45,082 nt of DNA from Sedimentibacter hydroxybenzoicus DSM 7310 (GTDB taxonomy: Bacteria; Bacillota; Clostridia; Tissierellales; Sedimentibacteraceae): assembly GCF_013403245.1 (NCBI RefSeq), contig NZ_JACBNQ010000026.1, forward strand, positions 1 through 45,082, given 5' to 3'. Under the pieces are notes generated by a model. It did no database searches, was not told where the DNA came from, and worked only from the letters and a program-made list of their open reading frames with translations. Position 1 is the first letter of the stretch; each line of letters begins with the position of its first letter. A program made the position numbers and the translations under genes. Of the stretch, positions 11,906-45,012 are shown in pieces.

Positions 11906-11939
11906 GATATCCCCCAATTTTATTTACTAATATAGCAAC

Positions 11940-29126: not shown

Positions 29127-29164
29127 AATTAATTCCCCTTTCTTGATATTCCGGATATAAAACA

Positions 29165-29895: not shown

Positions 29896-32301
29896 TTATC
29901 TGATCATCTGAGTGTTCCGGAAAAAACCTTCCCAAGGATCATCTCTTTCAATTCTCAAGAGTGCATCCTTCATACTGATACCATCAGGAACAACTGTATG
30001 AAGTTCACCCCAGGATATGGGCATGGATACCTTCGCACCTTCTCTCGCTCTCAGAGAATACGGAGCAATGCTTGTAGCACCTCTGGAATTTCGAATCCAA
30101 TCAATAAATATTTTGTCTTTACGTTGAGCTTTTCTTATATTACTCGTGTAGCGATCCGGCCATTTTTGCTCCATAACCTCTGCAACACGCTTTGCAAAAT
30201 CACGAAATACATCCCAGCCTGCCACAGGTTTTAAAGGAAGCACTACGTGATAGCCTTTACCTCCGCTGGTTTTCAGATATGAATTAAGAGATAGTTCATC
30301 AAGAATACCTTTAATATCTTCTGCGCCCTGACGAACCTTGGATAAGTCCATACCTTCATCGGGATCTAAGTCAAATACCATCATATCAGGCTTCTCAAGC
30401 TGTTCAACAACACTTCCCCAAATATGAAATTCCAGTGTTCCCATTTGTGCTTCGTATATAAGACCTGCCGTATTTTCAATGTAAAAATAATCTTCTATCG
30501 TGCCTGTTCCTATACTTCCAGATTCTGAACGCTTCTTATAAAAACAATTTTGAGATACACCTTTAGGACATCGAACAATACTGAGAATTCTATGTCTTAC
30601 ATAAGGAAGCATTCGCTCAGAAACCTTTAAATAGTACCGAGCCACATCTTCTTTTGTAATTTCCGGTTCATTGAAAATTATTTTATCAGGGCTTGAAATC
30701 TTTACTCCTTCAATAATAAGGTTGTTTGAATTTAATTCAGTTATCTTTTCTTCATTTACGGTTGATTGAAGCATCTCCTCTTCCCTTTCCCTTTTTATTT
30801 CCTTCGGATCCTTGTCTGCTCTTAAGCCCTTGTAGCTTGCCTGCCTTAACAGATTATCCTTCGTCCATTCGGCAAATTTAATTTCAGCAACTAATTCCGG
30901 CTCAAGCCACTTAATCTTTTCATTTGATCTGGTGTCAGGCGGAGTTTTAAAAGCCGGCTCCATCCTCTTTATGCTCCCGAATTTATTTTCAAGCACCGTC
31001 ATATCATTTTCACTTATACCGGTGCCTGCACGTCCTGCATATATTAAGTCATCCCCCTCATAAATTCCCAACAACAGCGAGCTTACACCCCTTGCCCTTT
31101 TATCGGAAAGTGTATATCCTCCGATTACAAATTCCTGTCTCTTATCACATTTAAGTTTAATCCAATCCTCGTTTCTTGTTCCTCTGTAAACAGAATCAGC
31201 CTTTTTGCCTATTATACCTTCCATGCCCGCTTCGCAGGCGGCGGCAAAGCTTTCCTTTCCATGCCCTCTGACATAACGGCTGTAATGCAAACCGGGTGGA
31301 GCTTCTTTCATTATGCTTTCAAGCATTTCTTTTCTCTTAATCAAAGGGTGCTGCCGCAAATCCATTCCGTCAAGTGCGAGCAAATCAAATATAATATAAG
31401 TCAGGCTTAAAGAATTCTGATTTTTCATATAATTCTGTAAAGCCTGAAAATCCGTCCTGCCGGAGTCATCCGTAATTACCATCTCTCCGTCAAAAACCAT
31501 AGACCTGCCGTCAGACCAATCAATAATCGCAGAGCTTACGTCATAAAATTGTCTTGAATAATCATTGCCGTTTCTGGTTACCAGCCTTGCATTATTACCT
31601 TCAACAAATGCCACAATCCTGTATCCGTCATATTTTAATTCATAAAGCCAATCCTTTCCCTCGGGAATATTTCTGACTAATTTAGCGAGCTGTACACTGA
31701 CTTCGCTGAAGGGATTTTTAATATTTCTTTCTTCTTTACCATCTTCTATTTCTGCCATGGTTCGCCCGGTTCTGATACTGACGGTAAATCCGGATATTCC
31801 GTCTGTATTTTGAACGTACTCATCCTTTTCCTTCAGCAAAAGCCAGTTATCATTTTTTTCGACCGCTTTTGTTTTTAATCTGATTAAAGCCCACTTTCCC
31901 TTGAGCCGTCTTCCTTTAAGGACAAATTTCAGCATACCTTCATTGAGCCCTTCATCCACATCAACATATGGCTCCCAATATCCTTCATCCCATATCATGA
32001 CAACTCCGCCGCCATATTCGCCCTTAGGTATAGTGCCTTCGAAATTTCTGTATTCCGTCGGATGGTCCTCAACCTGTATTGCCAGCCTCTTATCACGGGT
32101 ATTGTACGAGGGTCCCTTGGGTACAGCCCAGCTAAGCAGAGCCCCGTTCCATTCCAACCGCAAATCATAGTGCTTACTGCGTGCCAGGTGATATTGTATC
32201 ACAAACCGGAGACCTTCTTCGGAATTTTCTGTTTTTCCTTCCGGCTCTAAGGTTCTTTCAAAATTTCTTTTCAGATTGTATTTATTAAGCTTATTATCCA
32301 T
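29896..32301 (-). CDS. ligD: Multifunctional NHEJ DNA ligase LigD (phosphoesterase-ligase-polymerase)
   Basis: About 801 aa in three modules. The 3'-phosphoesterase domain is near residues 25-150 (YHLARSKHYDLRLE, IPKGEYGGG). The ATP-dependent ligase has nucleotidyl Lys223 in ELKYDGYR, motif EGIIGKK and an OB-fold part to about 490. A primase-polymerase domain follows from about 535 to the end (VRHRILSIVRCPKG, catalytic Asp pair in DLDPDEG near 644-648, TSGGKGYHVVLPL). The order matches Pseudomonas LigD rather than Mycobacterium (POL-PE-LIG) or Bacillus (LIG-POL). It repairs double-strand breaks with Ku, probably mainly in spores or stationary cells. The start at 32301 is 4 bp after the ku stop; a longer frame overlaps ku. 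Confidence 0.95.
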   Translation of the reverse strand: MDNKLNKYNLKRNFERTLEPEGKTENSEEGLRFVIQYHLARSKHYDLRLEWNGALLSWAVPKGPSYNTRDKRLAIQVEDHPTEYRNFEGTIPKGEYGGGVVMIWDEGYWEPYVDVDEGLNEGMLKFVLKGRRLKGKWALIRLKTKAVEKNDNWLLLKEKDEYVQNTDGISGFTVSIRTGRTMAEIEDGKEERNIKNPFSEVSVQLAKLVRNIPEGKDWLYELKYDGYRIVAFVEGNNARLVTRNGNDYSRQFYDVSSAIIDWSDGRSMVFDGEMVITDDSGRTDFQALQNYMKNQNSLSLTYIIFDLLALDGMDLRQHPLIKRKEMLESIMKEAPPGLHYSRYVRGHGKESFAAACEAGMEGIIGKKADSVYRGTRNEDWIKLKCDKRQEFVIGGYTLSDKRARGVSSLLLGIYEGDDLIYAGRAGTGISENDMTVLENKFGSIKRMEPAFKTPPDTRSNEKIKWLEPELVAEIKFAEWTKDNLLRQASYKGLRADKDPKEIKREREEEMLQSTVNEEKITELNSNNLIIEGVKISSPDKIIFNEPEITKEDVARYYLKVSERMLPYVRHRILSIVRCPKGVSQNCFYKKRSESGSIGTGTIEDYFYIENTAGLIYEAQMGTLEFHIWGSVVEQLEKPDMMVFDLDPDEGMDLSKVRQGAEDIKGILDELSLNSYLKTSGGKGYHVVLPLKPVAGWDVFRDFAKRVAEVMEQKWPDRYTSNIRKAQRKDKIFIDWIRNSRGATSIAPYSLRAREGAKVSMPISWGELHTVVPDGISMKDALLRIERDDPWEGFFRNTQMIR

Positions 32302-32305
32302 AAAG

Positions 32306-33079
32306 CTATGCTGATTCCTTGTCCTTCTGCGCTTTTTCCACACTTGCCTTCAACGCATCCATGAGGTCGATTACCTTGCCTGTATTATTGTTCTCAGCAG
32401 CAACCACTTCCTTGCCGGAAATTTTTGCCTCAATCAGCTCACGCAGCCTCGTCTGGTATTCATCCTTGTACTTAGACGGATCGAAGGGTGTATCCATTGA
32501 ATTAATCAGAACCTTCGCCATATTAAGCTCCTGTTCCGATACCTCGGATTTTGTGTAGGGCTTTTGCAGCTCTTTAATTTCATCGGCATAAAACATGGTG
32601 GAAATAAGTATGCCTTCCTGCCGGGGAATGATTGCCATAAGCGTATCCTTCGTGCCCATGACGGTCTTTCCTATGGCTATCTTCTGTTCTGCCATAAGCG
32701 CAGAGCGTAAAAGCTCAAAGGCTTTTTCGCCACCGGCTTCGGGGGCTGCCTGATATGTTTTTTCATAATACACAGGAGAAATTTGATCTAATTGCGCAAA
32801 GTGCAATATCTGAATGGATTTATCTTTTTCTGTCTTAATTTTTTCTATTTCTTCGTCTGTGATAACAACGTATTTATCCTTATCATATTCGTATCCTTTT
32901 ACTATATCCTTGGATGTTATTTCCTTGCCGCAATGCCCGCAGGTTTTCTTGTACTTTATTCGGCTGTTATCTTCCTTGTGTAATTGATTAAAATGAATAT
33001 CATTGTCCTGAGTAGCCGTATACATTGCGATTGGAATTGCCACCATCCCGAAAGTTATTACCGATTTACGTGATATCAT
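32306..33079 (-). CDS. ku: Ku-type DNA end-binding protein
   Basis: A 257-aa bacterial Ku homodimer-forming protein that binds double-strand DNA ends and recruits LigD. Seen are the N-terminal SVITFGMVAIPIAMYTAT strand (SISFGLVNIPVKLY-type), KTCGHCGKEI near residue 45, the KGYEY motif and a Lys-rich C-terminal tail. The start at 33079 follows CGGAGGTGACAATATG. It is first in a two-gene operon with ligD. Confidence 0.95.
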   Translation of the reverse strand: MISRKSVITFGMVAIPIAMYTATQDNDIHFNQLHKEDNSRIKYKKTCGHCGKEITSKDIVKGYEYDKDKYVVITDEEIEKIKTEKDKSIQILHFAQLDQISPVYYEKTYQAAPEAGGEKAFELLRSALMAEQKIAIGKTVMGTKDTLMAIIPRQEGILISTMFYADEIKELQKPYTKSEVSEQELNMAKVLINSMDTPFDPSKYKDEYQTRLRELIEAKISGKEVVAAENNNTGKVIDLMDALKASVEKAQKDKESA

Positions 33080-33152
33080 ATTGTCACCTCCGGGGATATT
33101 ATTTCCCAAACGAACTGTAAGTATTCGGTAAATATAGAAATATAGAAGAACC

Positions 33153-34471: not shown

Positions 34472-35290
34472 TTATAAAATTTTAAATTTTTTATCGTAAA
34501 TTCTGGTGAATCCAAGTACTGCTGCGGCAAATTCATAAGGCTTTTCATACATAGCTGCATGTCCGGAATCCTTAATCATTATAAGCTTAGAATTCTCAAT
34601 TCTTTTTTGAATTTTTTCCTGATTTTTGACAGGAGTAGTTGCATCATATTCTGCACCTATAATAAAAGTCGGAACCTTGATTTTACTTAACTCATCCGTA
34701 ATATTCAAATCTTCCGCTGACCTTACTAATCTAACGAACCCATCATACCATTCCTGTTTGAGTGACACTCCAAAGCTTTTTTCTCTTTCCGTCAGCCAAT
34801 GAATATTATCTTCGTAGAACTTCCTTGAGTATATATATGGCATTGTGGCTTTAAAAAAGGTACTTCCGTCATAGGTTTCAGCCGCTTTTATCCATCCTTC
34901 ACCAATATCTTTTAACATACGGTTTGTGTAGCTGGTGGTATTTGATAATATAAGCGACAGAAGTCTGTGTTCATATTTCAGTGCAAATCTTTGAGCTACC
35001 TCTCCTCCATAGGATATACCTACCAAATGAACCTTTTCAATATTCAACCTGTCGAACAGCTCATTTAACATTTCCACATGGAAATCCTGAGTGTATTGAA
35101 CCTCCATTTTGTCAGATTTTCCTTGATCCACAAAGTCTATTAGTATTAATTTATTGTTTTTAGAAAATGCATCTATAAACGGCATCCATGATGCAGTGCT
35201 CATCATAATTCCATTTAGAATAACAATTGGCTCTCCTTCTCCATGTATTTCATAAAACATATTTTTTCCCTTAATCAATAATTTAGGCAT
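34472..35290 (-). CDS. Alpha/beta-hydrolase (C-C bond hydrolase/esterase-like)
   Basis: A 272-aa single-domain alpha/beta hydrolase with a complete triad: Ser93 in GISYGG, Asp216 in GAEYDATTP and His244 in DSGHAAM. The first oxyanion segment is ILNGIMMSTASW. There is no signal peptide, so it is cytosolic. This subfamily covers esterases, lactonases, thioesterases and the meta-cleavage-type C-C hydrolases; which applies cannot be read. It is the last gene of the operon, 12 bp after the CoA-transferase gene, with GGGGAGGAAGT before the ATG. A remnant of a related hydrolase lies at 42470-42610 in the same operon. Confidence 0.88.
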   Translation of the reverse strand: MPKLLIKGKNMFYEIHGEGEPIVILNGIMMSTASWMPFIDAFSKNNKLILIDFVDQGKSDKMEVQYTQDFHVEMLNELFDRLNIEKVHLVGISYGGEVAQRFALKYEHRLLSLILSNTTSYTNRMLKDIGEGWIKAAETYDGSTFFKATMPYIYSRKFYEDNIHWLTEREKSFGVSLKQEWYDGFVRLVRSAEDLNITDELSKIKVPTFIIGAEYDATTPVKNQEKIQKRIENSKLIMIKDSGHAAMYEKPYEFAAAVLGFTRIYDKKFKIL

Positions 35291-35302
35291 ACTTCCTCCC
35301 CT

Positions 35303-36622
35303 TTACCAGATTTTTAACTCTTCAGCTTCTTTCTTAAGTTGATCTCTAAAATCCGGGTGAGCAATATTTATCAAAGCTTCTACTCTGTCTCCGATGGATG
35401 TACCTCTTAAGGACGCTACCCCATATTCTGTCACTACATAGTCTACATCATTTCTCGAAAGAGATACGGCAGCTCCCTGAGCTAATCTGGTTACTATTTT
35501 GGAAACAGTCTGCTTGTCTGCTTGCCCAGATACTCTTGCCTTAGTTGTAGAATATAAAGCTATAATGGATTTTCCGTCTCTTGACATCTGAGCGCCTATT
35601 GCTGTATCAGCCTGCCCTCCTGTACCGCTAAACTGAATATGTCCTAATGATTCCGAGCAGCATTGTCCTGTTAAATCTATTTCCAATGAAGTATTTATGG
35701 ATACCATCTTATGGTTTTTTCCTATTACGTATGGATCATTTACCCAGGAACCCTTCATTAAGCTAACTGCCGGATTATCATTAATAAAATTATACAATTT
35801 TTGGGTGCCCAAAGCAAAGGTAGCTACCATTTTTCCGGGCATCAAGGTCTTGCGTTTTCCTGTAATAACTCCCGCATTATATAAATCCACTACTCCGTCG
35901 GTAAGCATTTCTGTGTGAACTCCTAAATCTTTTTTGTTCATAAGCTCCGCAGCTACCGCATTTGGAATGCCGCCTATTCCCAATTGTATAGTTGAACCGT
36001 CTTCTATTAAATCTGCTATATATTTACCGATTTTCTTATCTTTTTCCGTTATCTCTGCTTCAGCTAATGCAGGTACATTATAATCCACTTCAATAACATA
36101 ATCTATATCATTTATATGAACCGTTGTATCTCCAAAGGTTCTGGGCATATTCGGATTAATTTCTATTATAACTATATCTGAATTCTCCATTATATCCCTT
36201 TCATAAGTAGCGGATAATGATAAAGAAATGTACCCGTGCTTATCCATTAACGAACCTGACCCTATATATATGTTTGGTTTTCTGTGGAAAAGCCTTTTTT
36301 TTGCTGCAAGATGCAGGTGGTTAGGTATAAAGGAGATGTTGCCGGTTTTATGAGCTTTCCTTATTGCAGGGCTGTAAAACCATCCATCCATCTTGAAGCT
36401 ATCCTTGTAATCAGGATTCATATAGTATTCATAATCACCCATTGGTAAGCAGGTTGTAACATTTACGTCTTTAACAGCACCTGCTATTGTATGGAGATTC
36501 TTTAAAAATTCCCTTCCTTCAGCAGCAGCCATACCCGATACTATACTATCGTTTGATTTAATCTTACTCAATGCTTCCTCAACAGTTATAAGCTTGTTAT
36601 TATAAATTTTATTTACGTCCAT
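35303..36622 (-). CDS. Acyl-CoA:acetate CoA-transferase (4-hydroxybutyrate CoA-transferase family)
   Basis: A 439-aa protein of the acetyl-CoA hydrolase/transferase family (AbfT, Cat1/Cat2, butyryl-CoA:acetate transferase). The catalytic glutamate is Glu238 in HTEMLTDG, the same number as in 4-hydroxybutyrate CoA-transferase. GIGGIPNAV (near 215) and the CoA-binding GGQADTAIGAQ (near 335) are present. It moves CoA from acetyl-CoA or another donor onto a carboxylic acid without using ATP. In this operon it probably activates the imported substrate, or recovers CoA from the product of the KAS-like enzyme; both are inference. It lies 10 bp downstream of the KAS-like gene. Confidence 0.9.
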   Translation of the reverse strand: MDVNKIYNNKLITVEEALSKIKSNDSIVSGMAAAEGREFLKNLHTIAGAVKDVNVTTCLPMGDYEYYMNPDYKDSFKMDGWFYSPAIRKAHKTGNISFIPNHLHLAAKKRLFHRKPNIYIGSGSLMDKHGYISLSLSATYERDIMENSDIVIIEINPNMPRTFGDTTVHINDIDYVIEVDYNVPALAEAEITEKDKKIGKYIADLIEDGSTIQLGIGGIPNAVAAELMNKKDLGVHTEMLTDGVVDLYNAGVITGKRKTLMPGKMVATFALGTQKLYNFINDNPAVSLMKGSWVNDPYVIGKNHKMVSINTSLEIDLTGQCCSESLGHIQFSGTGGQADTAIGAQMSRDGKSIIALYSTTKARVSGQADKQTVSKIVTRLAQGAAVSLSRNDVDYVVTEYGVASLRGTSIGDRVEALINIAHPDFRDQLKKEAEELKIW

Positions 36623-36632
36623 TTACTGCCTC

Positions 36633-37655
36633 CTAACTACCCCATCTGATGACATTAGCAGCCCATGCATATCCGATCCCTGCGGCTATCATGGATATTA
36701 CGGTTCCATTCTTTACTTTTCCTTGTTCTAATGCCAATTGCAGAGAAAGAATTTGATCTACCTGACCCATATGTCCGTAGCTTGAAAGATAATTAGACTG
36801 TTCCTCAGTTATGCCTAAAGATTCCACCATAGCCTTATGCTGAGAATATTTAAAGTGAAGTACCGCTAAATATCCTAATTCAGCCTTTGATACGCCTGAC
36901 TTTTCAAAGGCCTTGTCTATGCAATAATACCAGTTATCCATCGACACTTCATTCAGCCTGTCCTTCATATGCTTTGAATCAAACAATCTTAAGGACTTAT
37001 ATGCTTCGTCAAGATTGCTCTTGTTTATTGGTTTTTCCGTACCTCCATATTCTACTCCGGCATCTCTGGCCATGGTTCCGTCAGTCATTATATGTGTGCC
37101 TAATAATAAATTTTTATTATAGTTTTTTTTGAGTATAATAGCTCCTCCCCCTGCGGAAAGATTATACATCATGGACATACTCTTGTCGGAATAATCAACA
37201 AAATCACCATTTCTGTAACCGCCTACTACCATTACAGTATTGATATCTTCATCTGCTATCATCATATCCTTCGCTATTTTCATAGCTGCTACAGTAGTAC
37301 AGCATCTTTGCTGCAGATCTATTGCCCAGGCATTTACAGCCCCTATTTTTTCCTGAATATAAATACCTGATGTGGTCAGAGGATACTCCTTCCATTCTTC
37401 TCCCATGCACAGTATTAAATCTATCTCTTTAGGATCTATTCCCGTTCTTTTAATTGCATCTAATCCTGCTCTGACACCCATTTCTTGAGTTCCGTCTTCT
37501 TTTCCCGGTATTGATTTTTCCACTATGCCAAGCTTTTGCACAATAGCTTTTTCTGTCCAAAGCCCGTTAGTGGCATCTGAGATCTCCCTAGCTGTCATTC
37601 TTTTTTCAGGAATATATATACCCGTTCCTACAATACCTATATTTACATTAGTCAT
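36633..37655 (-). CDS. KAS III/thiolase-fold condensing or retro-Claisen enzyme with Cys-His-His triad
   Basis: A 340-aa thiolase-superfamily protein closest in layout to FabH/HMG-CoA synthase-like enzymes. Residues placed by alignment to FabH are nucleophile Cys118 (DLQQRCCTT; FabH Cys112), His267 (AVLHFKYSQHK; FabH His244) and His295 (SYGHMGQVD, where FabH has Asn274). The C-terminus IAAGIGYAWAANVIRW matches the FabH GGGLTWGAALLRW end. Cys119 follows the nucleophile directly. It is probably not housekeeping FabH: no fab genes are near, and the gene is embedded with an importer, a CoA-transferase and a hydrolase. The reaction could be Claisen condensation or thiolytic cleavage of a beta-keto acyl-CoA. 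The start at 37655 follows GAAGGAGGGATATA; a 12-codon-longer frame contains the ribosome-binding site. Confidence 0.8.
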   Translation of the reverse strand: MTNVNIGIVGTGIYIPEKRMTAREISDATNGLWTEKAIVQKLGIVEKSIPGKEDGTQEMGVRAGLDAIKRTGIDPKEIDLILCMGEEWKEYPLTTSGIYIQEKIGAVNAWAIDLQQRCCTTVAAMKIAKDMMIADEDINTVMVVGGYRNGDFVDYSDKSMSMMYNLSAGGGAIILKKNYNKNLLLGTHIMTDGTMARDAGVEYGGTEKPINKSNLDEAYKSLRLFDSKHMKDRLNEVSMDNWYYCIDKAFEKSGVSKAELGYLAVLHFKYSQHKAMVESLGITEEQSNYLSSYGHMGQVDQILSLQLALEQGKVKNGTVISMIAAGIGYAWAANVIRWGS

Positions 37656-37710
37656 TATATCCCTCCTTCTTATATCCTTGCTTGCACCCAAGCCTTTTTT
37701 TCAAAAGTTC

Positions 37711-38745
37711 TTATTCTCCGGGTGCTTTTTCGGTTTTAGATGATTTCTCATTATCTGATTTTACTTTTCTGTTTTCTATAAAATGACGCAGAGTACCAAC
37801 GATGCCTTTCGGCATGAACAGTATTACAGCGATGTATAAAATTCCCAAGAATATTAACCATCTTTCAAATATAGGGTGAATGCTTCGAAGATTTAACAGC
37901 ATATTCTGAAAAACATTAACCACTATGCTTCCGACAATTCCTCCGTATAATGTTCCGGTACCTCCTATCAATGTATACAGGAGGGCATTGGTAGAATAAG
38001 TTATACTTAAAAGTTCAGTATTGGCAAATCTGTTAAACGTCCCAAATACCAGTCCTGCAAGACCTGCAGAAACACCTGAAACTAAAATTGCAATCAACTT
38101 ATAATTTTCTATCCTAAAGCCTAAAAATTCAGCTCTTTGTTCATTTTCACGAATGGCTATTATTACTCGTCCTGTAGGGGATAAAATAAACTTTCTTAAA
38201 ATAATAAACATAACAATTAAAAATATCAGTGAAAAATAGTAGAAAAAAATTCTGTTTGACAGTATGGATGGAACCTTAAAAATCAGACCGTCAGTTCCAT
38301 TGGTCACATCTCTCCAGCTTTCAGCTATATTTCTGACTACTTCTGCCAATGCCAGAGTAAGCATAGCTGCCGCAAAAACGGAAGTTCCTTTTTTAAAAGA
38401 CAGCTTTCCCATTACCAAGGCACAGATTACCGAGTACAATACAACTACTGCAATTGACAGAATAAATACAGGTATCGTGGTTCCAAGCTTATTGTAGAGT
38501 ATTCCTGCAACATATGCTCCACCTCCGAAGTAAACGGCATGTCCCAAATTTATAAAGCCCATGTACCCTCTTAATATGTCATAGCTCATTGCAAATACAG
38601 AAATTACAAATATTCTTGTGAGTAAATTCAGCATTGTATATGAAGAAAATTTAGGAAATATAAGCAAAGCAATCAATAATACAGATAAAGCTATTATTAC
38701 ATTTTTACTAAAGTCTCTCTGAATGTGTTCTCTTAGTGATTTCAT
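37711..38745 (-). CDS. Branched-chain amino acid-type ABC permease (LivM family)
   Basis: A 344-aa membrane protein with about nine hydrophobic segments and the LivM motifs GYMGFINLGHAVYFGGGAYVAGIL (near residue 60) and AIRENEQRAEFLGF (near 195, the coupling helix). LIGGTGTLYGGIVGS is near residue 265. The C-terminal tail is charged (KSDNEKSSKTEKAPGE). It forms the membrane channel with the LivH-family protein, whose stop codon overlaps this start (ATGA). It is followed 55 bp downstream by the KAS-like gene. Confidence 0.92.
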   Translation of the reverse strand: MKSLREHIQRDFSKNVIIALSVLLIALLIFPKFSSYTMLNLLTRIFVISVFAMSYDILRGYMGFINLGHAVYFGGGAYVAGILYNKLGTTIPVFILSIAVVVLYSVICALVMGKLSFKKGTSVFAAAMLTLALAEVVRNIAESWRDVTNGTDGLIFKVPSILSNRIFFYYFSLIFLIVMFIILRKFILSPTGRVIIAIRENEQRAEFLGFRIENYKLIAILVSGVSAGLAGLVFGTFNRFANTELLSITYSTNALLYTLIGGTGTLYGGIVGSIVVNVFQNMLLNLRSIHPIFERWLIFLGILYIAVILFMPKGIVGTLRHFIENRKVKSDNEKSSKTEKAPGE

Positions 38746-39632
38746 TTCTTCACCGCCAATCTGAGTATACTTTTTCTGCCTTCACTAAACAGCCCCTCCG
38801 GCTTAAATGCCAATACAATTGCCATTACAAGGACATTTGTCACTACTGCGAAGGACGGAATAAACCACGCTACAAATGCGTTCATCAAGCCTAACAAAAA
38901 GCTTGCCTTTGCAGTTCCGGAAAAGTTGCCAAGTCCTCCTATGACTATTGCTATAAAAGCCAGTATCTGATTGTTGGCTCCCGCTGTAGATATTACATTG
39001 CCTGCCAAAGGCGCATATAATGCTCCGCCTAATCCCGCCAATGCTGCACCTGCCGCAAATACTATTGTAAAATAAAGCCTGATATTAATACCTAATGCCT
39101 GAACCATATCCGATCTTTGTACTCCGGCTCTTATTACCATGCCTGTCTTGCTGTTCTTCAAAATGTAATTTACAATAATAAGAACGGATATCCCTATTAT
39201 TATCAGCAATATTCTATAGTGACTTATTGTAACTCCGTTGATTATCGTTGTTCCTGAAATAAAGTCAGGTTTTTTTATTGCTATAGGAGTGTTTCCCCAA
39301 ATTAAGCGAATTATTTCAATAAAAACAATATTAAGCCCCAAGGTAATTAAAATTTGTGCAGGAGCATTTCCATACAATCTGCTTACGAAAAATTTTTCGA
39401 ATATTATACCAAGAATAAATACGATTAGCATTGCTGCTAATATTCCCAATATAAAGCTGTTTGTCATCTGATATATCCACACATATGCATATCCGCCCCA
39501 GACAAATAAAGCTCCGTGTGCAAAATTAACAACTCCCATTAATCCCAATATAATTGCTAAGCCTGAAGAAACTAAAAATATCAGTGCACCTTCAGATAAT
39601 CCATTAATAAAAAGTGTTAAGAAAATATCCAT
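38742..39632 (-). CDS. Branched-chain amino acid-type ABC permease (LivH family)
   Basis: A 296-aa membrane protein with about eight hydrophobic segments. LivH-family motifs are GLMGVVNFAHGALFVWGGYAYV (near residue 35), IRAGVQRSDMVQALGI (near 170) and AIVIGGLGNFSGTAKAS (near 225). The start at 39632 follows AAGGGAGGAACT; a frame seven codons longer would overlap the ATPase gene upstream. It pairs with the LivM-family permease. Confidence 0.92.
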   Translation of the reverse strand: MDIFLTLFINGLSEGALIFLVSSGLAIILGLMGVVNFAHGALFVWGGYAYVWIYQMTNSFILGILAAMLIVFILGIIFEKFFVSRLYGNAPAQILITLGLNIVFIEIIRLIWGNTPIAIKKPDFISGTTIINGVTISHYRILLIIIGISVLIIVNYILKNSKTGMVIRAGVQRSDMVQALGINIRLYFTIVFAAGAALAGLGGALYAPLAGNVISTAGANNQILAFIAIVIGGLGNFSGTAKASFLLGLMNAFVAWFIPSFAVVTNVLVMAIVLAFKPEGLFSEGRKSILRLAVKK

Positions 39633-39642
39633 AGTTCCTCCC

Positions 39643-40347
39643 TTATATTCCAAGATGTGTGGCTTGCAGCTGTGTATCCTGTATCAAATCTTCTATTTTA
39701 CCGTTTACTACAGTCCTGCCCTCATTGATTATATAGTATCTGGATGCAATAGCACATGCTAAAGAAAAGTTTTGCTCAACCAATAATATGGTGCTTTCCT
39801 TGCTTATTTCCTTAAGGGCAACTGCTAATGTCTCTATAACTACAGGAGCCAATCCTTTGCTGGGCTCATCTATTAAAATTATCTTATTATCATTGACTAA
39901 TGCTCTCGATATTGACAGCATCTGACGCTGCCCGCCGCTAAGAGTTCTGGCCATCCTTTCAGATGCCTTCCTTAAATCCGGAAAAATATCATATACCTTA
40001 GCTATCCTGTCATCTCCATCCTTTGTATCATTTCTTATTGCTAACTTTAAATTTTCTGCAATCGTCAAATAATCAAACACTCCATAATCTTCAGGTACAT
40101 ATCCTATTCCCTTGTTTGCAATATCATAAGTAGGAATTCCCACCAGGGAATCCTCACCCAGAAGAATGGAGCCGCTTCTTGTATTTACTAATCCCATTAT
40201 AGTTTTCAGCAATGTGCTTTTACCTGCACCGTTCCTGCCTAATATTGCTATGGCCTCTCCTTTTTTAACTTCTATGTCGACCCCTTGCAATATGGTGTAT
40301 TGGCCTATATAGGAATTCAAATTTTCCACTTTAAGTATTGATGCCAT
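39643..40347 (-). CDS. Branched-chain amino acid-type ABC ATPase (LivF family)
   Basis: A 234-aa ATPase with Walker A GRNGAGKSTLLK, the LivF-type YVPEDYGVFDYLTIAENL segment, signature LSGGQRQML, Walker B IILIDEPSKGLAP and the H-loop residue replaced in the usual LivF way (LLVEQN). Its start follows GGGAGGAGGGGTTATAG and overlaps the end of the LivG-family gene by 17 bp. Confidence 0.93.
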   Translation of the reverse strand: MASILKVENLNSYIGQYTILQGVDIEVKKGEAIAILGRNGAGKSTLLKTIMGLVNTRSGSILLGEDSLVGIPTYDIANKGIGYVPEDYGVFDYLTIAENLKLAIRNDTKDGDDRIAKVYDIFPDLRKASERMARTLSGGQRQMLSISRALVNDNKIILIDEPSKGLAPVVIETLAVALKEISKESTILLVEQNFSLACAIASRYYIINEGRTVVNGKIEDLIQDTQLQATHLGI

Positions 40348-41104
40348 CTATAACCCCTCCTCCCAGATATGCCTTAAGAACTTCAGGGTGTTTCGAAACA
40401 GCCTCCGGCTCTCCCTCAATAAGCTTCATTCCGTTAACTATAATTATGAGCTTATCTGACAAAGCCTTAACCATGTCCATTTTGTGCTCAATCAATATAA
40501 CTGTGGTGCCGGTCTTTTTAATTTTTGCAAGAATTTCTATCATCGTCGGAACTTCTTCAATGGCCATACCTGCCGTAGGTTCATCTAACAGCAATGCCTC
40601 AGGCTCAAGTGCCAATACCATGCCTAACTCTAATTTTCTTTGCTCCGTATGGCTTAGCTTACTTGCAATGAAACTTTTCTTATCTGATAAAAGGACTTTT
40701 TCTAATAATTCATCTGCCTTTTGATTAATACTTGTATAATTTCTATGGTCAACAAAAATCCTGTATCCAATATTCTCCTTTGATTGTACAGCCAACCTTA
40801 CATTTTCATATACTGTAAGATTAGGAAAAACATTAGTCAGCTGAAAGGACCTGCCCATTCCCATCTTTACACGTTCAACAGGGGACAGACAGGTAATGTC
40901 CGTCCCTTTGAAATATATTTTCCCTTCTGTTGGCTTTAAAAGACCGCTGATTAAGTTGAATAAGGTTGTCTTTCCGGCACCGTTTGGTCCAAGGATGGTA
41001 GTAAATACTTTTTCTTCCAATTCAAGATTCATGTTGCTTACTGCTTTATGGGCTCCAAAGCTAATGCCTAAATTTTCAGTTTTAATTAATACTTCACCCA
41101 TCAT
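40331..41104 (-). CDS. Branched-chain amino acid-type ABC ATPase (LivG family)
   Basis: About 257 aa with Walker A GPNGAGKTTLFN, the LivG-type MGRSFQLTNVFPNLTVYENV segment, Walker B ALLLDEPTAGMA and IEHKMD. The ABC signature position reads KLSHTEQRKLELG, where the usual LSGGQ/LSYGQQR is replaced by LSHTEQRKLE, seen in several LivG proteins. The ATG at 41104 is preferred because AAAGGATGTAT precedes it; an upstream ATG is part of that ribosome-binding site. Confidence 0.92.
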   Translation of the reverse strand: MMGEVLIKTENLGISFGAHKAVSNMNLELEEKVFTTILGPNGAGKTTLFNLISGLLKPTEGKIYFKGTDITCLSPVERVKMGMGRSFQLTNVFPNLTVYENVRLAVQSKENIGYRIFVDHRNYTSINQKADELLEKVLLSDKKSFIASKLSHTEQRKLELGMVLALEPEALLLDEPTAGMAIEEVPTMIEILAKIKKTGTTVILIEHKMDMVKALSDKLIIIVNGMKLIEGEPEAVSKHPEVLKAYLGGGVIDGINT

Positions 41105-41149
41105 ATACATCCTTTCTATTCATTTCTGCTTGCAAATACTCGTCTCTTT

Positions 41150-42424
41150 TTAGCGTCCGGGTGCATTTATAGGTGGTGCAATGTCCTCAGCCGGTATTTC
41201 ACGAACAAATTCAGGTACAGGGTAGTCTACCCCTTCAACTTCCATCAATATTACTTCATAAAGAGGCTGAATAGATTGATGGTCCTCTGTACGAAAATAC
41301 CTTGTTCCTGTAGGGCTTTCATACTCCATTCCTTCCATTGCCTCTATAAGAGTATCTGCATCTGTACTGCCATCTGTTTTTTCCAATGCTGTTATAATTG
41401 CAGATGCTGCTGCCATGCCGCCCGGTGTAAATAAGTCCGGAACCTCATTATATTCTTCCATGTGTTTTTCTTTCAGCCACTCATTCATAGGATTGTTTTG
41501 CGGCAATGTATGATGGTATACACAAAAGCCTTGCATTCCTATCATCGGTGTCATGGATTTCAATGCTGCAATTTCCGGAGCACCTGTCGTTATATTGATA
41601 CCATAGCTCTCTAAGTCATATTCCATCAATTGTCCCCAAGGATTGTTGGCACCTGCCCAGATTACATACAGGTAGTCAGGTTTTGCTTCTCTTATCCTCA
41701 TTATATACGGTGAAAAGTCAGTAGTATCGGTCGGTGGGAATTCTTGGTGCACCAACTCCCCTCCACGCTCAATCAGCTCATTAACAATGGGTTGTACCAT
41801 TGAAGTACCAAATGAGCTGTCCGGTGCTAATGTTGCAACCTTTGCCCCCGGCTTACTGTTTATAATAACATCTGCCATTGCTGCCGCATCCTGTGCGGAA
41901 TTTCTTCCTGTACGGAATATATATGGGTTCCAGCTTTCACCTGTCAGGAAATCTGCTGCCGCAGGCTCAATTACGTATACGGTTTTAAACTCTTCCGCAA
42001 TATCTAATACAGCCGCTGCATCTGATGAGGAAGCTGCACCTACTAAAATATCAACCTTATCCACGTCAAGAAGCTTTATAGCTCTTTCTCTTGCTACATC
42101 CGGTACATTTGTTGTATCTTCCCATATTACTTTAATAGGTCTTCCCGCTACTTCCATAGTGCCGTCTGTAAGATATTCCAAGCCTAACATAAATCCTTTT
42201 TGGTTTTGTTCACCATAATCTTGCAATGCACCACTTAATGAAGTAAGTGCTCCTATCACTATTGGTTCTTTTGATTCTGAACCGTTATTACCGGTATTTT
42301 GTTCCCCACCGTTTGGGGCAGGACTGTTTGCTCCTGTACTGTCATTTCCATTGCTTGTACATCCGGTTGCAAATATACCGATTGCAAGTATTAATACTAA
42401 CAATAAACTTACTGTTTTTTTCAA
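41150..42424 (-). CDS. Substrate-binding lipoprotein of the LIV-type importer
   Basis: A 424-aa lipoprotein with signal peptide and lipobox FATGC (Cys22). A low-complexity Asn/Gly/Ser/Pro linker (about 23-50) and a periplasmic-binding-protein type I leucine-binding domain follow (IVIGALTSLSGALQDYGEQNQKGFMLGLEYL..., GAASSSDAAAVLDIAEEFKTVYV). This family binds branched-chain amino acids but also amides, urea, aromatic acids and other small carboxylates, so the ligand is open. It starts with TTG after AGGGAGGTATTTAC. It is the first transporter gene after the sensor gene and the hydrolase remnant. Confidence 0.92.
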   Translation of the reverse strand: MKKTVSLLLVLILAIGIFATGCTSNGNDSTGANSPAPNGGEQNTGNNGSESKEPIVIGALTSLSGALQDYGEQNQKGFMLGLEYLTDGTMEVAGRPIKVIWEDTTNVPDVARERAIKLLDVDKVDILVGAASSSDAAAVLDIAEEFKTVYVIEPAAADFLTGESWNPYIFRTGRNSAQDAAAMADVIINSKPGAKVATLAPDSSFGTSMVQPIVNELIERGGELVHQEFPPTDTTDFSPYIMRIREAKPDYLYVIWAGANNPWGQLMEYDLESYGINITTGAPEIAALKSMTPMIGMQGFCVYHHTLPQNNPMNEWLKEKHMEEYNEVPDLFTPGGMAAASAIITALEKTDGSTDADTLIEAMEGMEYESPTGTRYFRTEDHQSIQPLYEVILMEVEGVDYPVPEFVREIPAEDIAPPINAPGR

Positions 42425-42469
42425 AGTAAATACCTCCCTAAAATTTTTTATTTATTAATTAATAGCCAC

Positions 42470-42610
42470 TTATTCCATGAAAGACAATATTATATTCATA
42501 AATCTTTGCAAATCATCTGTCATAGCTTCATGACCACCAAATTCCAATAATTCTAATTTTGCATTTGGGCCTATACCTTTAGAAATGCCTGCACCCATGT
42601 CTAATTGAAT
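42470..42610 (-). pseudogene. C-terminal remnant of an alpha/beta hydrolase
   Basis: A 46-codon open stretch (42 codons from an internal ATG at 42598) ends in NAKLELLEFGGHEAMTDDLQ and then RFMNIILSFME. This is the typical last strand, catalytic-His loop and final helix of alpha/beta hydrolases (compare DSGHAAM in the hydrolase at 34472-35290). No nucleophile region exists upstream, because the sensor gene ends 15 bp away. No ribosome-binding site precedes the ATG. It looks like what is left after deletion of a second hydrolase gene. Confidence 0.7.
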
Positions 42611-42624
42611 TTAACTTAATCAAT

Positions 42625-43236
42625 TTAATCCTCCTTGCTTAATAATTTTGCATTCTCTTTTAACTTTTCTGCTCTATCATTTAAGTCAATGGCCAATTTG
42701 CTGATAAAACTACTCACTTCTATCTGAAATAATGAAATATTTAAAATCTCATCGAGTTTTTCAGAAATGTTTATCTCGGTATTTTTTACATATTCGTTTA
42801 AATCTCTTCCAAGTTCCTTAAGTTTTTTTGAATTAAAGGAGATTGTTTCTGTCATTGATACTAATTGCTGCACTGTAGCATGCAGGTTATCAGCTAAGGC
42901 CAACATTAAATCTTGCTTATCTACAGCCTCGGTAAAGGATACGGACCCAATAATTTTGCCGGCATTATCCCTTATTGGTATTGCAATTGCAATATAAGGA
43001 AATCCAAACACCTCCGGTCCTACTCTTCTTACAACCCTTCTGCCTGTAATAACGCTTTCATAATTGACAGATCCCTTTATGTGAGGAACTCCTTTCCTGA
43101 TATTGTGATCCTGCCTTTTACTTGGCACATATATAAGGCATTTTTCAAGATCACAAACCGATACAGCAAAGTCCGTATTAGTAAGTTCATTTATATAGGG
43201 GGCTACGTCCACAAAGGAATTAAGTATATCACCCAT
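42625..43236 (-). CDS. Cytosolic MCP-like sensor-domain protein without signalling tip
   Basis: A 203-aa soluble protein. Residues about 1-115 form a PAS/Cache-like domain of the kind found at the N-terminus of soluble clostridial methyl-accepting proteins (FVDVAPYINELT...VSVCDLEKCLIYVPSK...FGFPYIAIAIPIRDNAGKIIGSVSF). A helical region (about 120-200) with heptad-like spacing follows. The conserved hairpin tip that contacts CheA/CheW is absent. It is first in the operon under the sigma-54 promoter and may sense the substrate or modulate the activator; this is inference. The start at 43236 follows GAAGGAGAAGAGC. Confidence 0.75.
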   Translation of the reverse strand: MGDILNSFVDVAPYINELTNTDFAVSVCDLEKCLIYVPSKRQDHNIRKGVPHIKGSVNYESVITGRRVVRRVGPEVFGFPYIAIAIPIRDNAGKIIGSVSFTEAVDKQDLMLALADNLHATVQQLVSMTETISFNSKKLKELGRDLNEYVKNTEINISEKLDEILNISLFQIEVSSFISKLAIDLNDRAEKLKENAKLLSKED

Positions 43237-43274
43237 GCTCTTCTCCTTCATTCTCGGTTATATTAAATTACATA

Positions 43275-43290
43275 TGCAACTACTATGCCA
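43275..43290 (-). promoter_or_regulatory. Sigma-54 (-24/-12) promoter of the importer/KAS operon
   Basis: On the minus strand the element reads TGGCATAGTAGTTGCA, matching TGGCAC-R-N4-TTGCW at all but one position, with correct spacing. The expected start is near 43264, 28 nt before the sensor-gene ATG. The sigma-54 activator gene lies immediately upstream. Confidence 0.88.
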
Positions 43291-43351
43291 ACATAGCAGA
43301 AGTAATCTTAAGTGTTTTTTACTGAAATTTTTCTTTTATTTCATTTTTTGC

Positions 43352-43385
43352 TGTACATTTTTTGGACATGTGCATTTTTTGGACA
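43352..43385. promoter_or_regulatory. Two abutting 17-bp repeats, probable activator-binding sites
   Basis: TGTACATTTTTTGGACA and TGTGCATTTTTTGGACA follow each other without a gap and differ at one base. Each is a partial inverted repeat (TGT...ACA ends). The pair is centred about 105 bp upstream of the expected sigma-54 start, as expected for enhancer-binding-protein sites. Confidence 0.75.
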
Positions 43386-43418
43386 GACACTTTATGAACA
43401 CTGAGGATATTCAAATGT

Positions 43419-43444
43419 AAAAAACTACCTCATTCAGGTAGTTT
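43419..43444 (-). terminator. Terminator of the sigma-54 activator gene
   Basis: On the minus strand the arms AAACTACCT / AGGTAGTTT with a 5-nt loop are followed by a T-run. It overlaps the stop codon of the activator gene and separates it from the operon it probably controls. Confidence 0.8.
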
Positions 43445-44873
43445 AGTTTATTCCATATCTCTCCATTTTATTGTATAGGGATGAGCGGCTGATGTCTAAA
43501 AGCTCTGCTGTCTTCAGCTTGTTACCTTCTGTATATTCAAGGCACCTCATTATTGCCTCTTTTTCTGTATCTTCTATTAAATATTTTAGTGGTCTTACCG
43601 GTCCGTCTAAGCTTATTTTTGAGCTATTGTTTATATATACCGGCAGATGTACGGGCAGGATAGTGTCCGAGTCCGTAAGATTAATTGCCCTTTCCAATAC
43701 ATTCTCCAGCTCTCTTACATTTCCGGCCCAGTTATGACCTCTCAAAATGTCCATAGCTTTGTCGGAAATTTTGATTACATACTTTCCCAGCTGGCTTGAA
43801 AGCTTTTTAAGAAGCATATCCAAAAGTGTATCAATATCTCCGGTTCTCTCTCTTAAGGGTGGTATTTCTATGGTCATTACATTGAGCCGGTAATATAAAT
43901 CCTCTCTGAAGCTACCTTCTTGAATCAGTTTTTTTAAATCCTTATTTGTGGCTGCTATTACTCTTACATCTGTTTTTATTATCTTATTTCCCCCGACTCT
44001 TTCGAACTCTTTTTCCTGTAATACTCTTAGCAGCTTTGCCTGCATCTTAATCGGCATGTCTCCAATTTCATCTAAAAAAATACTTCCGCCGTTTGCCAGT
44101 TCAAATTTACCTATTTTGCCTCCCCTTTTAGCTCCTGTAAATGCTCCCTCTTCATAACCGAACAGCTCAGATTCCAAGAGCTCAGAGGGTATGGCTGCGC
44201 TATTAACTTTTACAAATGGCGAATGAGACCTTGAGCTGTCTTTATGTATGGCATGTGCAAACAATTCCTTTCCTGTCCCACTTTCTCCCAATATCAATAC
44301 ATTAGAAATCGAATTGGAAGCTCTTCGACCTATAAACTTTGCTTGCGCCATTTTTTCACTGTTTCCTATTATGGTGTCCCATGAATATTTGGCTCCGTGT
44401 ATTTCCTTAAGTTGATTTTTATATAAATTGATTTCCGTTTCCAAAAGCTTGTTTTTTTCTATAATATCCTTAAATTTTTCTATATCTGCAAACAATACCA
44501 TACCGACCCCATATTTGACCTCATCCTTATCGCCTAATACAGGTATCCTGTGAACTATTGCAGTATGCCCGTTTTCAAAGGTATGCTTCCAGGCTATTTC
44601 CGCTTGCTTTGTTTTAAGAACATAAGGGAATCTCGAGTATTTATCTACCTCTAATACAGGTCTGCCAATTATTTCTTCCTTTTTTAATCCGAGAAAGTCT
44701 GCAAATACCTTGTTTATCATTCTGATCTTACTTTCCTTATCTATCATGATTAAGGGTACGGGAATTGGATCAAATATTTTATGCATCATTGAAACCAAGT
44801 ATTCATTTAAATTGGTATCTTCATCAATTTCGATACTGCTTTCAATCTTTTCACTATATACATCAGTATTCAT
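43443..44873 (-). CDS. Sigma-54-dependent transcriptional activator (PAS-AAA+-Fis)
   Basis: A 476-aa enhancer-binding protein. A PAS domain spans about residues 30-135 (IPVPLIMIDKESKIRMINKVFADFLGL). A linker helix leads to the AAA+ domain with Walker A GESGTGKE (196-203), the sigma-54-contacting GAFTGA (243-248), Walker B GSIFLDEIGD (263-272) and the sensor RFREDLYYRLNV-type motif (FREDLYYRL). A Fis-type helix-turn-helix is at the end (NKLKTAELLDISRSSLYNKM). There is no receiver domain, so a small ligand bound by PAS is the likely signal. The ATG at 44873 follows ACGGAGGTGGCTTT. It probably activates the sigma-54 promoter at 43275-43290. Confidence 0.93.
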   Translation of the reverse strand: MNTDVYSEKIESSIEIDEDTNLNEYLVSMMHKIFDPIPVPLIMIDKESKIRMINKVFADFLGLKKEEIIGRPVLEVDKYSRFPYVLKTKQAEIAWKHTFENGHTAIVHRIPVLGDKDEVKYGVGMVLFADIEKFKDIIEKNKLLETEINLYKNQLKEIHGAKYSWDTIIGNSEKMAQAKFIGRRASNSISNVLILGESGTGKELFAHAIHKDSSRSHSPFVKVNSAAIPSELLESELFGYEEGAFTGAKRGGKIGKFELANGGSIFLDEIGDMPIKMQAKLLRVLQEKEFERVGGNKIIKTDVRVIAATNKDLKKLIQEGSFREDLYYRLNVMTIEIPPLRERTGDIDTLLDMLLKKLSSQLGKYVIKISDKAMDILRGHNWAGNVRELENVLERAINLTDSDTILPVHLPVYINNSSKISLDGPVRPLKYLIEDTEKEAIMRCLEYTEGNKLKTAELLDISRSSLYNKMERYGIN

Positions 44874-45012
44874 AAAGCCACCTCCGTTTATTACCGCATC
44901 ATGCATAACTATTTTACCATACAAACGAACAAAAATGTTATTTTTTTATAATTTGATGTAAATCGCTTATGCTGTAGGTATAAAACAAAGCCATTACTTT
45001 TTAAGGTAATTG
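44874..45012. other. Upstream region of the activator gene
   Basis: AT-rich. A weak sigma-A candidate on the minus strand is TTTACA near 44965-44970. No sigma-54 promoter and no clear palindrome were found, so the activator gene is probably expressed from a vegetative promoter. Confidence 0.3.

Follow-up and report, generated by a model that had tools for sequence, protein, structure and literature searches.

PHB is a common storage polymer of bacteria, and 3-hydroxybutyrate (3HB) represents its building block. The degradation of PHB and 3HB, in the portion of a published account drawn on here, proceeds through PhaZ/PhaY, Bdh, AacS or ScoAB, and thiolase (PMC7830162). The way in which anaerobes take up and use PHB fragments seems, as an impression, to be little mapped. 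The gene cluster described here shares with that portion of the known pathway, through its relatives, a depolymerase or esterase, activation by a CoA-transferase or ligase, an SDR and a thiolase. It differs in that activation of its acid seems to precede oxidation, that its CoA-transferase is of the 4-hydroxybutyrate type and not ScoAB, and that it carries a built-in LIV importer together with a KAS-III-like enzyme as constant partner. Judging from gene content and gene company, we hold with moderate confidence that the operon would scavenge 3HB, or short esters of it that come from PHB, via CoA esters. The original prediction knew of no described pathway with this gene set, a statement that is softened here, as the surroundings point to PHB/3HB catabolism, which is an established type of pathway.

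The window, meaning the whole stretch of DNA analysed, is 45,082 nucleotides long and represents one entire contig (C19). The cluster within it comprises ten minus-strand genes, including a sensor-like gene, a LIV-type importer, the KAS-III-like enzyme, a CoA-transferase and a hydrolase, and all coordinates below refer to the minus strand. ORF reading and family searches recovered the ten genes and the families originally assigned to them, except for the sensor, whose gene (42625..43251, from ORF reading) is present and whose protein has no match in Pfam or NCBIfam. The short gaps and overlaps described before are found from the binding-protein gene onward, at 39, -17, -11, -4, 19, 10 and 12 bp, but the sensor-like and binding-protein genes stand 200 bp apart. 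This spacer contains what a deletion has left of a second alpha/beta hydrolase gene, of the intracellular PHB depolymerase type (42461..42640, by similarity to relatives), with roughly the first 12 codons adjoining the last 46. The C-terminal part is 67% identical over 46 aa (E 2e-20) and the N-terminal part 75% over 12 aa, at an E of only 4e-4. The remnant sits where the close relatives L039 and L040 have an intact gene, and its intact relatives match the depolymerase model NF050089.

The CoA-transferase (35303..36622, by domain search) belongs to the 4-hydroxybutyrate/butyryl-CoA:acetate group. The Glu of the HxEM motif is the catalytic residue of such transferases, and it is kept here as HTEM. 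The best solved match is 4-hydroxybutyrate CoA-transferase (3gk7), end-to-end with E 5e-109, whereas the butyryl-CoA:acetate equivalog scores below cut-off (315 vs 675 bits). The intact alpha/beta hydrolase (34472..35290) is esterase-like, with a GISYG nucleophile motif, and is closest among solved structures to 4q3l MGS-M2 (E 8e-63). As a PHB depolymerase it was rejected, at 77 bits with NF050089 against a cut-off of 300.

The company of the KAS-III-like gene was surveyed in 80 related loci, some on short contigs, and the counts are without a random-locus control. An acid-activating enzyme (CoA-transferase or AMP-ligase) lies nearby in 76 of the 80, a transporter in 64, an alpha/beta hydrolase in 60, and SDR, thiolase, MaoC or Hbd genes also in 60 (by class, SDR 55, thiolase 39 and MaoC 8; SDRs are common genes). 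In the available DNA, 20 loci are without any of these four classes, and 20 are without a hydrolase. Crotonase and Hbd are found in one locus (L048) and Ter in another (L053), while a third (L068) has MaoC together with a CoA-transferase pair and an SCFA transporter. The module extends over Firmicutes, Bacteroidota, Chlorobiota/Ignavibacteria, a Bacteriovoracaceae bin and haloarchaeal plasmids; MaoC occurs at haloarchaeal loci too, and on all four haloarchaeal plasmids examined (10 found) the KAS-III-like gene is directly 3' of LIV permeases. Together with the activating enzyme in 76 loci, this upholds uptake, CoA activation and the KAS-III-like enzyme as a recurrent module, and the gene set stays together across relatives, though the importer type varies. 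The remaining LIV importers of this survey match the permeases of the window at no more than about 25-32%, which counts against the 3HB reading.

The original prediction had excluded beta-oxidation for want of a dehydrogenase or hydratase, and this found no support in the comparison, as genes for SDR, thiolase, MaoC, crotonase, Hbd and Ter occur near the KAS-III-like gene in relatives. The absence of a dehydrogenase is correct for the gene run itself, but a close match to the relatives' SDR is located at the end of another contig, away from the activator, which weakens the 3HB reading. It is 84% identical to the SDR upstream of the activator in L039 and L040, at a distance of some 0.15 kb from where contig C17 ends; the next best SDR of the source genome reaches 50%.

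A second line of evidence comes from the depolymerase. One hydrolase group, in 16 of the 80 loci, matches the NCBIfam equivalog NF050089, 'intracellular short-chain-length PHA depolymerase', 16/16 at E <= 1e-30; bit scores, read for five proteins (four of the 16 plus that of L136), are 348-417 against the cut-off of 300. Two further hydrolases checked among the 80 loci fail the model, at 92 bits (L046) and 89 bits (L050), and that of L055 reaches 111 bits. Among 249 genomes, order-wide, a depolymerase over cut-off occurs in 22 of 26 genomes with a close KAS-III-like gene and in 3 of 223 others (Fisher 1.8e-24). Kinship is allowed for only through counting by genus, which gives 14/17 vs 3/75 (3e-11); at a looser E <= 1e-70 the genome counts are 22/26 vs 12/223. 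In 18 of the 22 double carriers, with coordinates read by eye, both genes are on one contig at most 10 kb apart. The source genome is one of the four carriers without a depolymerase over cut-off, with the remnant kept. Against the 3HB reading, the depolymerase group is limited to 16 of the 80 loci, in the window the gene is broken, and the intact hydrolase there falls short of the depolymerase model; the loci without a hydrolase or without SDR, thiolase, MaoC and Hbd weigh the same way.

If the operon does serve 3HB, the sensor-like protein and the sigma-54 activator would turn it on, the LIV-type importer would take the acid in, the hydrolase would release monomers from esters, and the CoA-transferase would form the CoA ester. 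The SDR, upstream in relatives and at another contig's end here, would oxidise 3HB-CoA to acetoacetyl-CoA, and a thiolase with AtoDA-like genes elsewhere in the genome would complete catabolism. Substrate, direction and every catalytic step are predicted, from observed genes, promoter motif, conserved company and depolymerase-type co-inheritance. In Clostridium homopropionicum, the locus reads hydrolase-activator-KAS-CoA-transferase-MaoC-CoA-transferase pair-SCFA transporter. Growth of this species on 3HB favours the reading, and its growth on 2- and 4-hydroxybutyrate counts against specificity for 3HB (PMC4591306). Further support comes from an importer copy of the same type (L170, binding protein 81%) beside thiolase and SDR, and from a more distant importer (L171, 39%) beside an activator and SDR. 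Additionally, the KAS-III-like enzyme as a module marker would allow PHB-fragment users to be found in genomes.

The KAS-III-like enzyme (36633..37691) is a full member of NCBIfam NF005308 (PRK06840), at 459 bits over a cut-off of 315. It belongs to an uncharacterised enzyme family, to which the module would assign a function and which currently bears the annotation '3-oxoacyl-ACP synthase'. Fatty acid synthesis of the bacterial type is, to our knowledge, not known from haloarchaea, which makes that name doubtful on their plasmids. The key residues are Cys117, His266 and His294 (numbered from Thr at 37652), present in 94, 91 and 94 of 94 aligned members. His294 takes the position of FabH's Asn in all 94, and a congener's FabH (L152) keeps the Asn. 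The protein was rejected as FabH for want of the Cys-His-Asn triad and by model (110 bits with TIGR00747, cut-off 292), and as a thiolase on showing only ACP_syn_III domains at E <= 0.001. FabH, BioZ, PqsC and OleA share its KAS III fold (TM, query, 0.77-0.86 among the 50 matches listed) and the position of the Cys nucleophile, with only 15-24% identity among those 50. PDB sequence searches for PRK06840 relatives of tested function returned only FabH-like and other distant relatives, and the literature searched held no mention of 'PRK06840' by name. The chemistry may be retro-Claisen cleavage, ester thiolysis or acyl transfer. The substrate is probably an acid already, or currently being, activated to its CoA ester, because the activating enzyme is the most constant partner.

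Plain oxidation of 3HB offers this enzyme no obvious task, which counts against the 3HB reading. A tentative proposal is that it represents a new enzyme of PHB metabolism, in which Cys117 would transfer the 3-hydroxybutyryl groups of oligomer esters to CoA by thiolysis, or, in reverse, it would act as an oligo-3HB synthase. Such thiolysis, if true, would spare the cell an ATP or CoA donor that it would otherwise require. The proposal would explain why the gene is co-inherited with a depolymerase of intracellular type, although 22 of the 26 carrier genomes are without class III PhaC over cut-off (4 of 26 have one). The class III model (TIGR01836), the only one used, has no match in the source genome. 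We know of no PHB-thiolysing enzyme with a KAS fold. In the part of the source used, Ralstonia PhaZ1, a depolymerase, is reported to convert PHB to 3HB-CoA by thiolysis (PMC3430594). The phaEC genes reported for Clostridium homopropionicum (PMC5159582), itself a KAS carrier, count against the synthase half.

It is unlikely, on balance, that the operon imports some beta-keto acid, or a beta-hydroxy acid different from 3HB, which after CoA transfer would be cleaved by the KAS-III-like enzyme in a thiolase-like retro-Claisen reaction, a step named in the original prediction. The FabH fold with its conserved Cys117 and His266 would suit this, and the KAS and CoA-transferase genes adjoin in many Firmicute loci. 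Of the 11 Fusibacter-type loci (activator, KAS, CoA-transferase), 10 are without SDR, thiolase, MaoC or Hbd in the available DNA, again in favour; hydrolases and transporters of the groups counted are missing from all 11, and loci of this type weigh against the 3HB reading. Against it, a thiolase-family gene lies near the KAS gene in 39 of the 80 loci, and the enzyme therefore does not simply replace thiolase; the depolymerase association points to 3HB units.

The importer is a complete LIV/HAAT ABC set (Peripla_BP_6, two BPD_transp_2, two ABC_tran), with a substrate-binding protein (41150..42424, by domain search), ATPases of the LivG/UrtD (40331..41110) and LivF/UrtE (39643..40347) types, and two permeases (38742..39653 and 37711..38745), the last four by Pfam/NCBIfam. 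Assignment as a Urt importer of urea or a Liv importer of amino acids was rejected, as the best Urt and Liv models stay below equivalog cut-offs for all five proteins. In support of the 3HB reading, a Mariluticola plasmid has a binding protein of 44% identity between a 3-hydroxybutyrate dehydrogenase (TIGR01963, 370 bits vs cut-off 307) and the remaining importer genes, behind a sigma-54 activator. The importer family is not substrate-specific, which counts against that reading: of six alphaproteobacterial plasmid relatives examined (14 found), four adjoin AMP-ligase, crotonase, MaoC and hydrolase genes, one adjoins fatty-acid genes, and none has an annotated KAS gene. These neighbours would fit the degradation of another imported acid (hydroxycinnamate-type, a 2- or 4-hydroxy acid, or another carboxylate), as would the 4-hydroxybutyrate CoA-transferase match and the best solved binding proteins, 3n0x (E 4e-85) and 3nnd, listed without a ligand name. 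We consider this distinctly unlikely given the depolymerase profile and the presence of neighbours of C4 type (Hbd, crotonase, Ter, SCFA transporter).

A Cys-His-His triad is known from the decarboxylating condensing enzymes KAS I/II, with which the KAS-III-like protein is compatible. It could accordingly be imagined as a decarboxylating acetoacetyl-CoA synthase, condensing the CoA ester of imported malonate or a relative with acetyl-CoA ahead of SDR, MaoC and thiolase, which, with Ter, suit a C4 product. Five AMP-ligases of related clusters reach 260-316 bits with the model for malonyl-CoA synthase, but its cut-off is 558 and all five score higher with general acyl-CoA ligase models; the depolymerase and esterases would be left unexplained, and the idea is quite improbable. 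Least credible of all is that the protein serves as the FabH of the source genome, where it is the only FabH-fold gene found by the FabH model, a thiolase-like fragment apart, and where the fab cluster (acpP-fabK-fabD-fabG-fabF-fabZ, named from translations) is without fabH, since, beyond its low score and His for Asn, it lies inside a sigma-54 operon with an importer and has relatives on haloarchaeal plasmids, canonical FabH is over cut-off in only 1 of 25 genomes of the genus against FabF in 23, and 13 congeners, as we read the listing, have FabF over cut-off with FabH matches weak, thiolase-like or absent.

Regulation of the 3HB-type operon would depend on a PAS-AAA+-Fis sigma-54-dependent activator (43443..44924, by ORF and domain search; likelier start ATG at 44873, after GGAGG). 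Its best NCBIfam model is PrdR, at 459 bits below a cut-off of 795, and it is 41% identical to the Mariluticola activator adjoining 3-hydroxybutyrate dehydrogenase. The single TGGCAYN5TTGCW match, TGGCATAGTAGTTGCA at 43290-43275, is the putative promoter; 0.13 such matches per window are expected by chance, and at least one turned up in 12 of 100 shuffles. The call is supported by conservation, as 22 of 26 related loci have the strict motif no more than 450 bp past the activator, against 0/26 for the reversed pattern and a mean of 0.01 for letter shuffles. Both marks of a sigma-54-activated operon, a -24/-12 promoter and an activator gene, are present at the sequence level. The idea of one operon behind one such promoter stands for the genes from sensor to hydrolase, but the activator gene lies upstream of the promoter. 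It is probably a separate transcription unit, because it ends before the promoter and a terminator-like hairpin then follows (43422..43444, 9 pairs with a T tail; the scan found 9 sites in the region vs 6.3 expected).

Two 17 bp sites in tandem, TGTCCAAAAAATGCACA (43369..43385) and TGTCCAAAAAATGTACA (43352..43368), are candidate activator binding sites; no shuffle of 100 contains two, with the pattern having been written from these same sites. TGTC...ACA sites of similar length follow the activator in 6 of 26 relatives, a count without control. The sensor-like protein is small and soluble, with a likely start at ATG 43236 after a GAAGGAG box. In L136, a different protein in a similar place carries an MCP signalling domain.

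A cluster centred on a KAS-III-like enzyme (36633-37691, minus strand; NCBIfam NF005308) is proposed to import and break down 3-hydroxybutyrate (3HB) or its oligomers. The route would begin with uptake and ester cleavage, followed by CoA activation, oxidation to acetoacetyl-CoA and thiolysis. As an alternative to the oxidation, a MaoC dehydration and a subsequent reduction could serve, as they could in relatives. PHB and 3HB catabolism is already known, and the titles and opening abstract lines returned by literature searches on the module or its chemistry contained no LIV-importer version built around a KAS-III-like enzyme.

The ten genes named in the original prediction were all found on the minus strand, and Pfam and NCBIfam models agree with the families assigned, apart from the sensor-like protein (42625-43251), which matches neither. 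The single operon behind a single sigma-54 promoter stands in part. A -24/-12 motif is present on the minus strand (43290-43275), between activator and sensor, with two tandem 17-bp sites upstream of it, and spacing is tight from the binding protein onward (39, -17, -11, -4, 19, 10 and 12 bp). The sigma-54 activator gene (43443-44924) closes in a terminator-like hairpin upstream of the motif and, because the promoter motif comes only after it, is probably a transcription unit of its own. The layout is recurrent: in 22 of 26 related loci a strict -24/-12 motif follows the activator gene at a distance of no more than 450 bp, against 0/26 for the reversed pattern and a mean of 0.01 for letter shuffles.

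Within the order Tissierellales, 41 of 249 genomes hold a KAS-like match at E <= 1e-40. Twenty-six of these have the close type (best match E 5e-140 or better, 60-100% identity), and the best match in the remaining 15 is 31-37% identical. Among 25 Sedimentibacter genomes the close type occurs in this one only, so the gene was probably acquired laterally. A scan of 84,980 species genomes returned 455 KAS-like relatives, and the best 80 were kept together with flanks of up to 10 kb. Importer, activating enzyme and hydrolase do accompany the KAS-like gene elsewhere, although the type of importer varies: a transporter is present in 64 of the 80 loci (LIV binding protein 25, SSS symporter 35, AtoE-like 2), a CoA-transferase or an AMP-ligase in 76 (70 and 6, respectively), and a hydrolase from one of four groups in 60, counted anywhere in the DNA compared, on contigs that are sometimes short and without a random-locus control. 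SDR (55/80), thiolase (39/80), sigma-54 activator (26/80) and MaoC (8/80) genes were counted likewise. All these counts use sequence clusters named after few tested members and miss some truncated or divergent genes; L097, which has a piece of a CoA-transferase, and L052, which has an importer, are scored as lacking them.

Gene order differs among lineages. A frequent Bacteroidota order is thiolase, SDR, SSS symporter, CoA-transferase, KAS2 (a second FabH-like gene), KAS, lipoprotein, porin-like protein and lipoprotein esterase, where the porin match is weak and the lipoproteins were assigned by eye. The AMP-ligase, of which one member was tested, belongs to six Bacteroidota/Ignavibacteria loci. 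In Clostridium homopropionicum the order is hydrolase, activator, KAS, CoA-transferase, MaoC, a CoA-transferase pair (one of the pair tested) and an SCFA transporter. Ten haloarchaeal plasmids hold a KAS-like relative, 29-31% identical; in all four examined, LIV permeases lie immediately upstream, joined there by an AMP-ligase and an alpha/beta hydrolase in three and by MaoC in two, with one having none of these.

A clue to the substrate comes from a hydrolase group found in 16 of the 80 loci, all 16 members of which match the NCBIfam equivalog for intracellular short-chain-length PHA depolymerase (NF050089) at E <= 1e-30. Five proteins checked, four of the 16 and one from L136, score 348-417 bits, above the cut-off of 300; other cluster hydrolases fall below it (window 77, L055 111, L046 92 and L050 89 bits). 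Depolymerases over the cut-off occur in 25 of the 249 genomes, namely in 22 of 26 with the close KAS type versus 3 of the remaining 223 (Fisher p = 1.8e-24). Counted by genus, the figures are 14/17 versus 3/75 (p = 3e-11), this count being the sole correction for relatedness, and at a looser E <= 1e-70 the depolymerase appears in 12 of the 223 genomes without a close KAS-like gene. The four exceptions among close-KAS genomes are this one, a genome that is 97% complete and two less complete ones (71% and 85%). With coordinates read by eye, the depolymerase and KAS genes are no more than 10 kb apart in 18 of the 22 genomes and on different contigs in four. Class III PHB synthase, the one PhaC class modelled, shows no association with the close KAS type (4/26 versus 29/223, p = 0.76). 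A depolymerase in most carriers and class III PhaC in few fits scavenging, and most close-KAS carriers of the order can probably cut 3HB polyesters while lacking class III PhaC. Outside the 249-genome set, phaEC is reported from C. homopropionicum (PMC5159582).

Judged against its relatives, the window cluster is a damaged copy. L039 and L040, which are close relatives, have a depolymerase gene between sensor and KAS. In the window, the 200 bp that separate sensor from binding protein contain about 12 codons from the beginning and the last 46 codons of a depolymerase-type gene (75% over 12 aa, E 4e-4, and 67% over 46 aa, E 2e-20), the two parts in different frames, and the importer follows. 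In L039 and L040 an SDR gene stands upstream of the activator. Its best match in this genome, at 84% identity, is on contig C17, about 0.15 kb short of the contig end; the second-best SDR reaches 50%. The window is the entire contig C19 of a 3.8-Mb, 98.9% complete genome, and its end (window 45082) shares a repeat of about 22 bp with the end of C17 (L140). The repeat is probably the point where the assembly broke, and could signal a small mobile element or repeat lying between the SDR and activator genes; from synteny with L039 and L040, we infer that the SDR adjoins the activator here. Thiolase genes lie beside AtoDA-like genes, so named through BLAST to related loci, on contigs C14 and C6.

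In the standard 3HB route Bdh acts first on the free acid and CoA then joins the oxoacid (PMC7830162). The KAS clusters differ from it: no partner accompanies KAS more constantly than the activating enzyme, so CoA probably joins the hydroxy acid or an ester. Plain 3HB oxidation offers the KAS-like enzyme no obvious place; the options for its step are retro-Claisen cleavage of a 3-oxoacyl-CoA, 3HB-ester thiolysis, ester synthesis and decarboxylating condensation. Also against the 3HB reading, 10 of 11 Fusibacter-type loci are without a nearby SDR, thiolase, MaoC or Hbd, the counted hydrolase groups are absent from all 11, and importer relatives have been placed in other acid pathways too.

The importer is an exchangeable part of the KAS clusters. 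Identity between the window permeases and the LIV importers elsewhere among the 80 loci is only about 25-32%, and the 249 genomes hold seven binding proteins of the window type (41150-42424; E <= 1e-70), spread over six genomes. Five of the seven are near a KAS gene, which in one case is a 40% paralogue. One binding protein of this type, 81% identical (L170), is accompanied by the rest of the importer, a thiolase and an SDR, and one of 39% identity (L171) lies between an activator and an SDR. The best solved relatives of the binding protein, 3n0x and 3nnd, were set aside as a guide to the substrate, being listed without a ligand name, and a literature search on these structure codes gave nothing relevant.

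The predicted structure of the KAS-like enzyme (mean pLDDT 83) has the FabH fold, with TM 0.77-0.86 among the 50 matches listed; PDB sequence searches returned distant relatives only. All 94 aligned members share Cys117 and His294, and 91 of them share His266; His294 stands at the position of the FabH Asn when a congener FabH is compared. The enzyme passes its own family model (459 bits, cut-off 315) and fails that of FabH (110 bits, cut-off 292). The fab cluster of this genome on contig C3 (L156:4712-9435) has no fabH, which would leave room for the KAS-like gene as its FabH; FabF is present. That role is weakened by the congeners: over the 25 genomes FabH exceeds its cut-off in one and FabF in 23, so the genus seems not to rely on FabH, and the KAS-like gene need not fill that role. 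HMG-CoA synthase models score 65-77 bits on the N-terminal half. A catalytic Glu in the GEE motif, considered as a counterpart of that in HMG-CoA synthase, was dropped, as the motif varies among the 94 members (Ser at residue 85 in six, Thr at residue 86 in three). KAS2, present in 40 of the 80 loci (e.g. L055:8980-9987), keeps the Cys and lacks both His in four aligned members; our guess is that it is a partner subunit.

The sensor-like protein of L042 gave a weak PhaE match (E 0.007, below the cut-off), which was set aside; a protein in a similar place in L136 carries an MCP domain, which leaves the L042 match itself unexplained. In L139 (1785-5714) two chemoreceptor-like genes of 662 and 567 aa, the larger with dCache and MCP domains, adjoin the KAS cluster, and chemotaxis toward its substrate is possible. 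In nine loci from Fusibacter and unnamed Clostridia (L066, L083, L085, L090-L092, L105, L110 and L118), arcA-arcB-arcC lie upstream of activator, KAS and CoA-transferase, the arc genes being named in L066 and assigned by clustering in the other eight. Elsewhere on the minus strand of the window are a 1622-aa bacterial alpha-2-macroglobulin-like protein (7049-11917), a protein of 2688 aa carrying S-layer homology domains close to its C terminus (21099-29165), and overlapping Ku and LigD genes, the latter with 3'-phosphoesterase, ligase and primase-polymerase domains (29896-33109), a bacterial non-homologous end joining pair.
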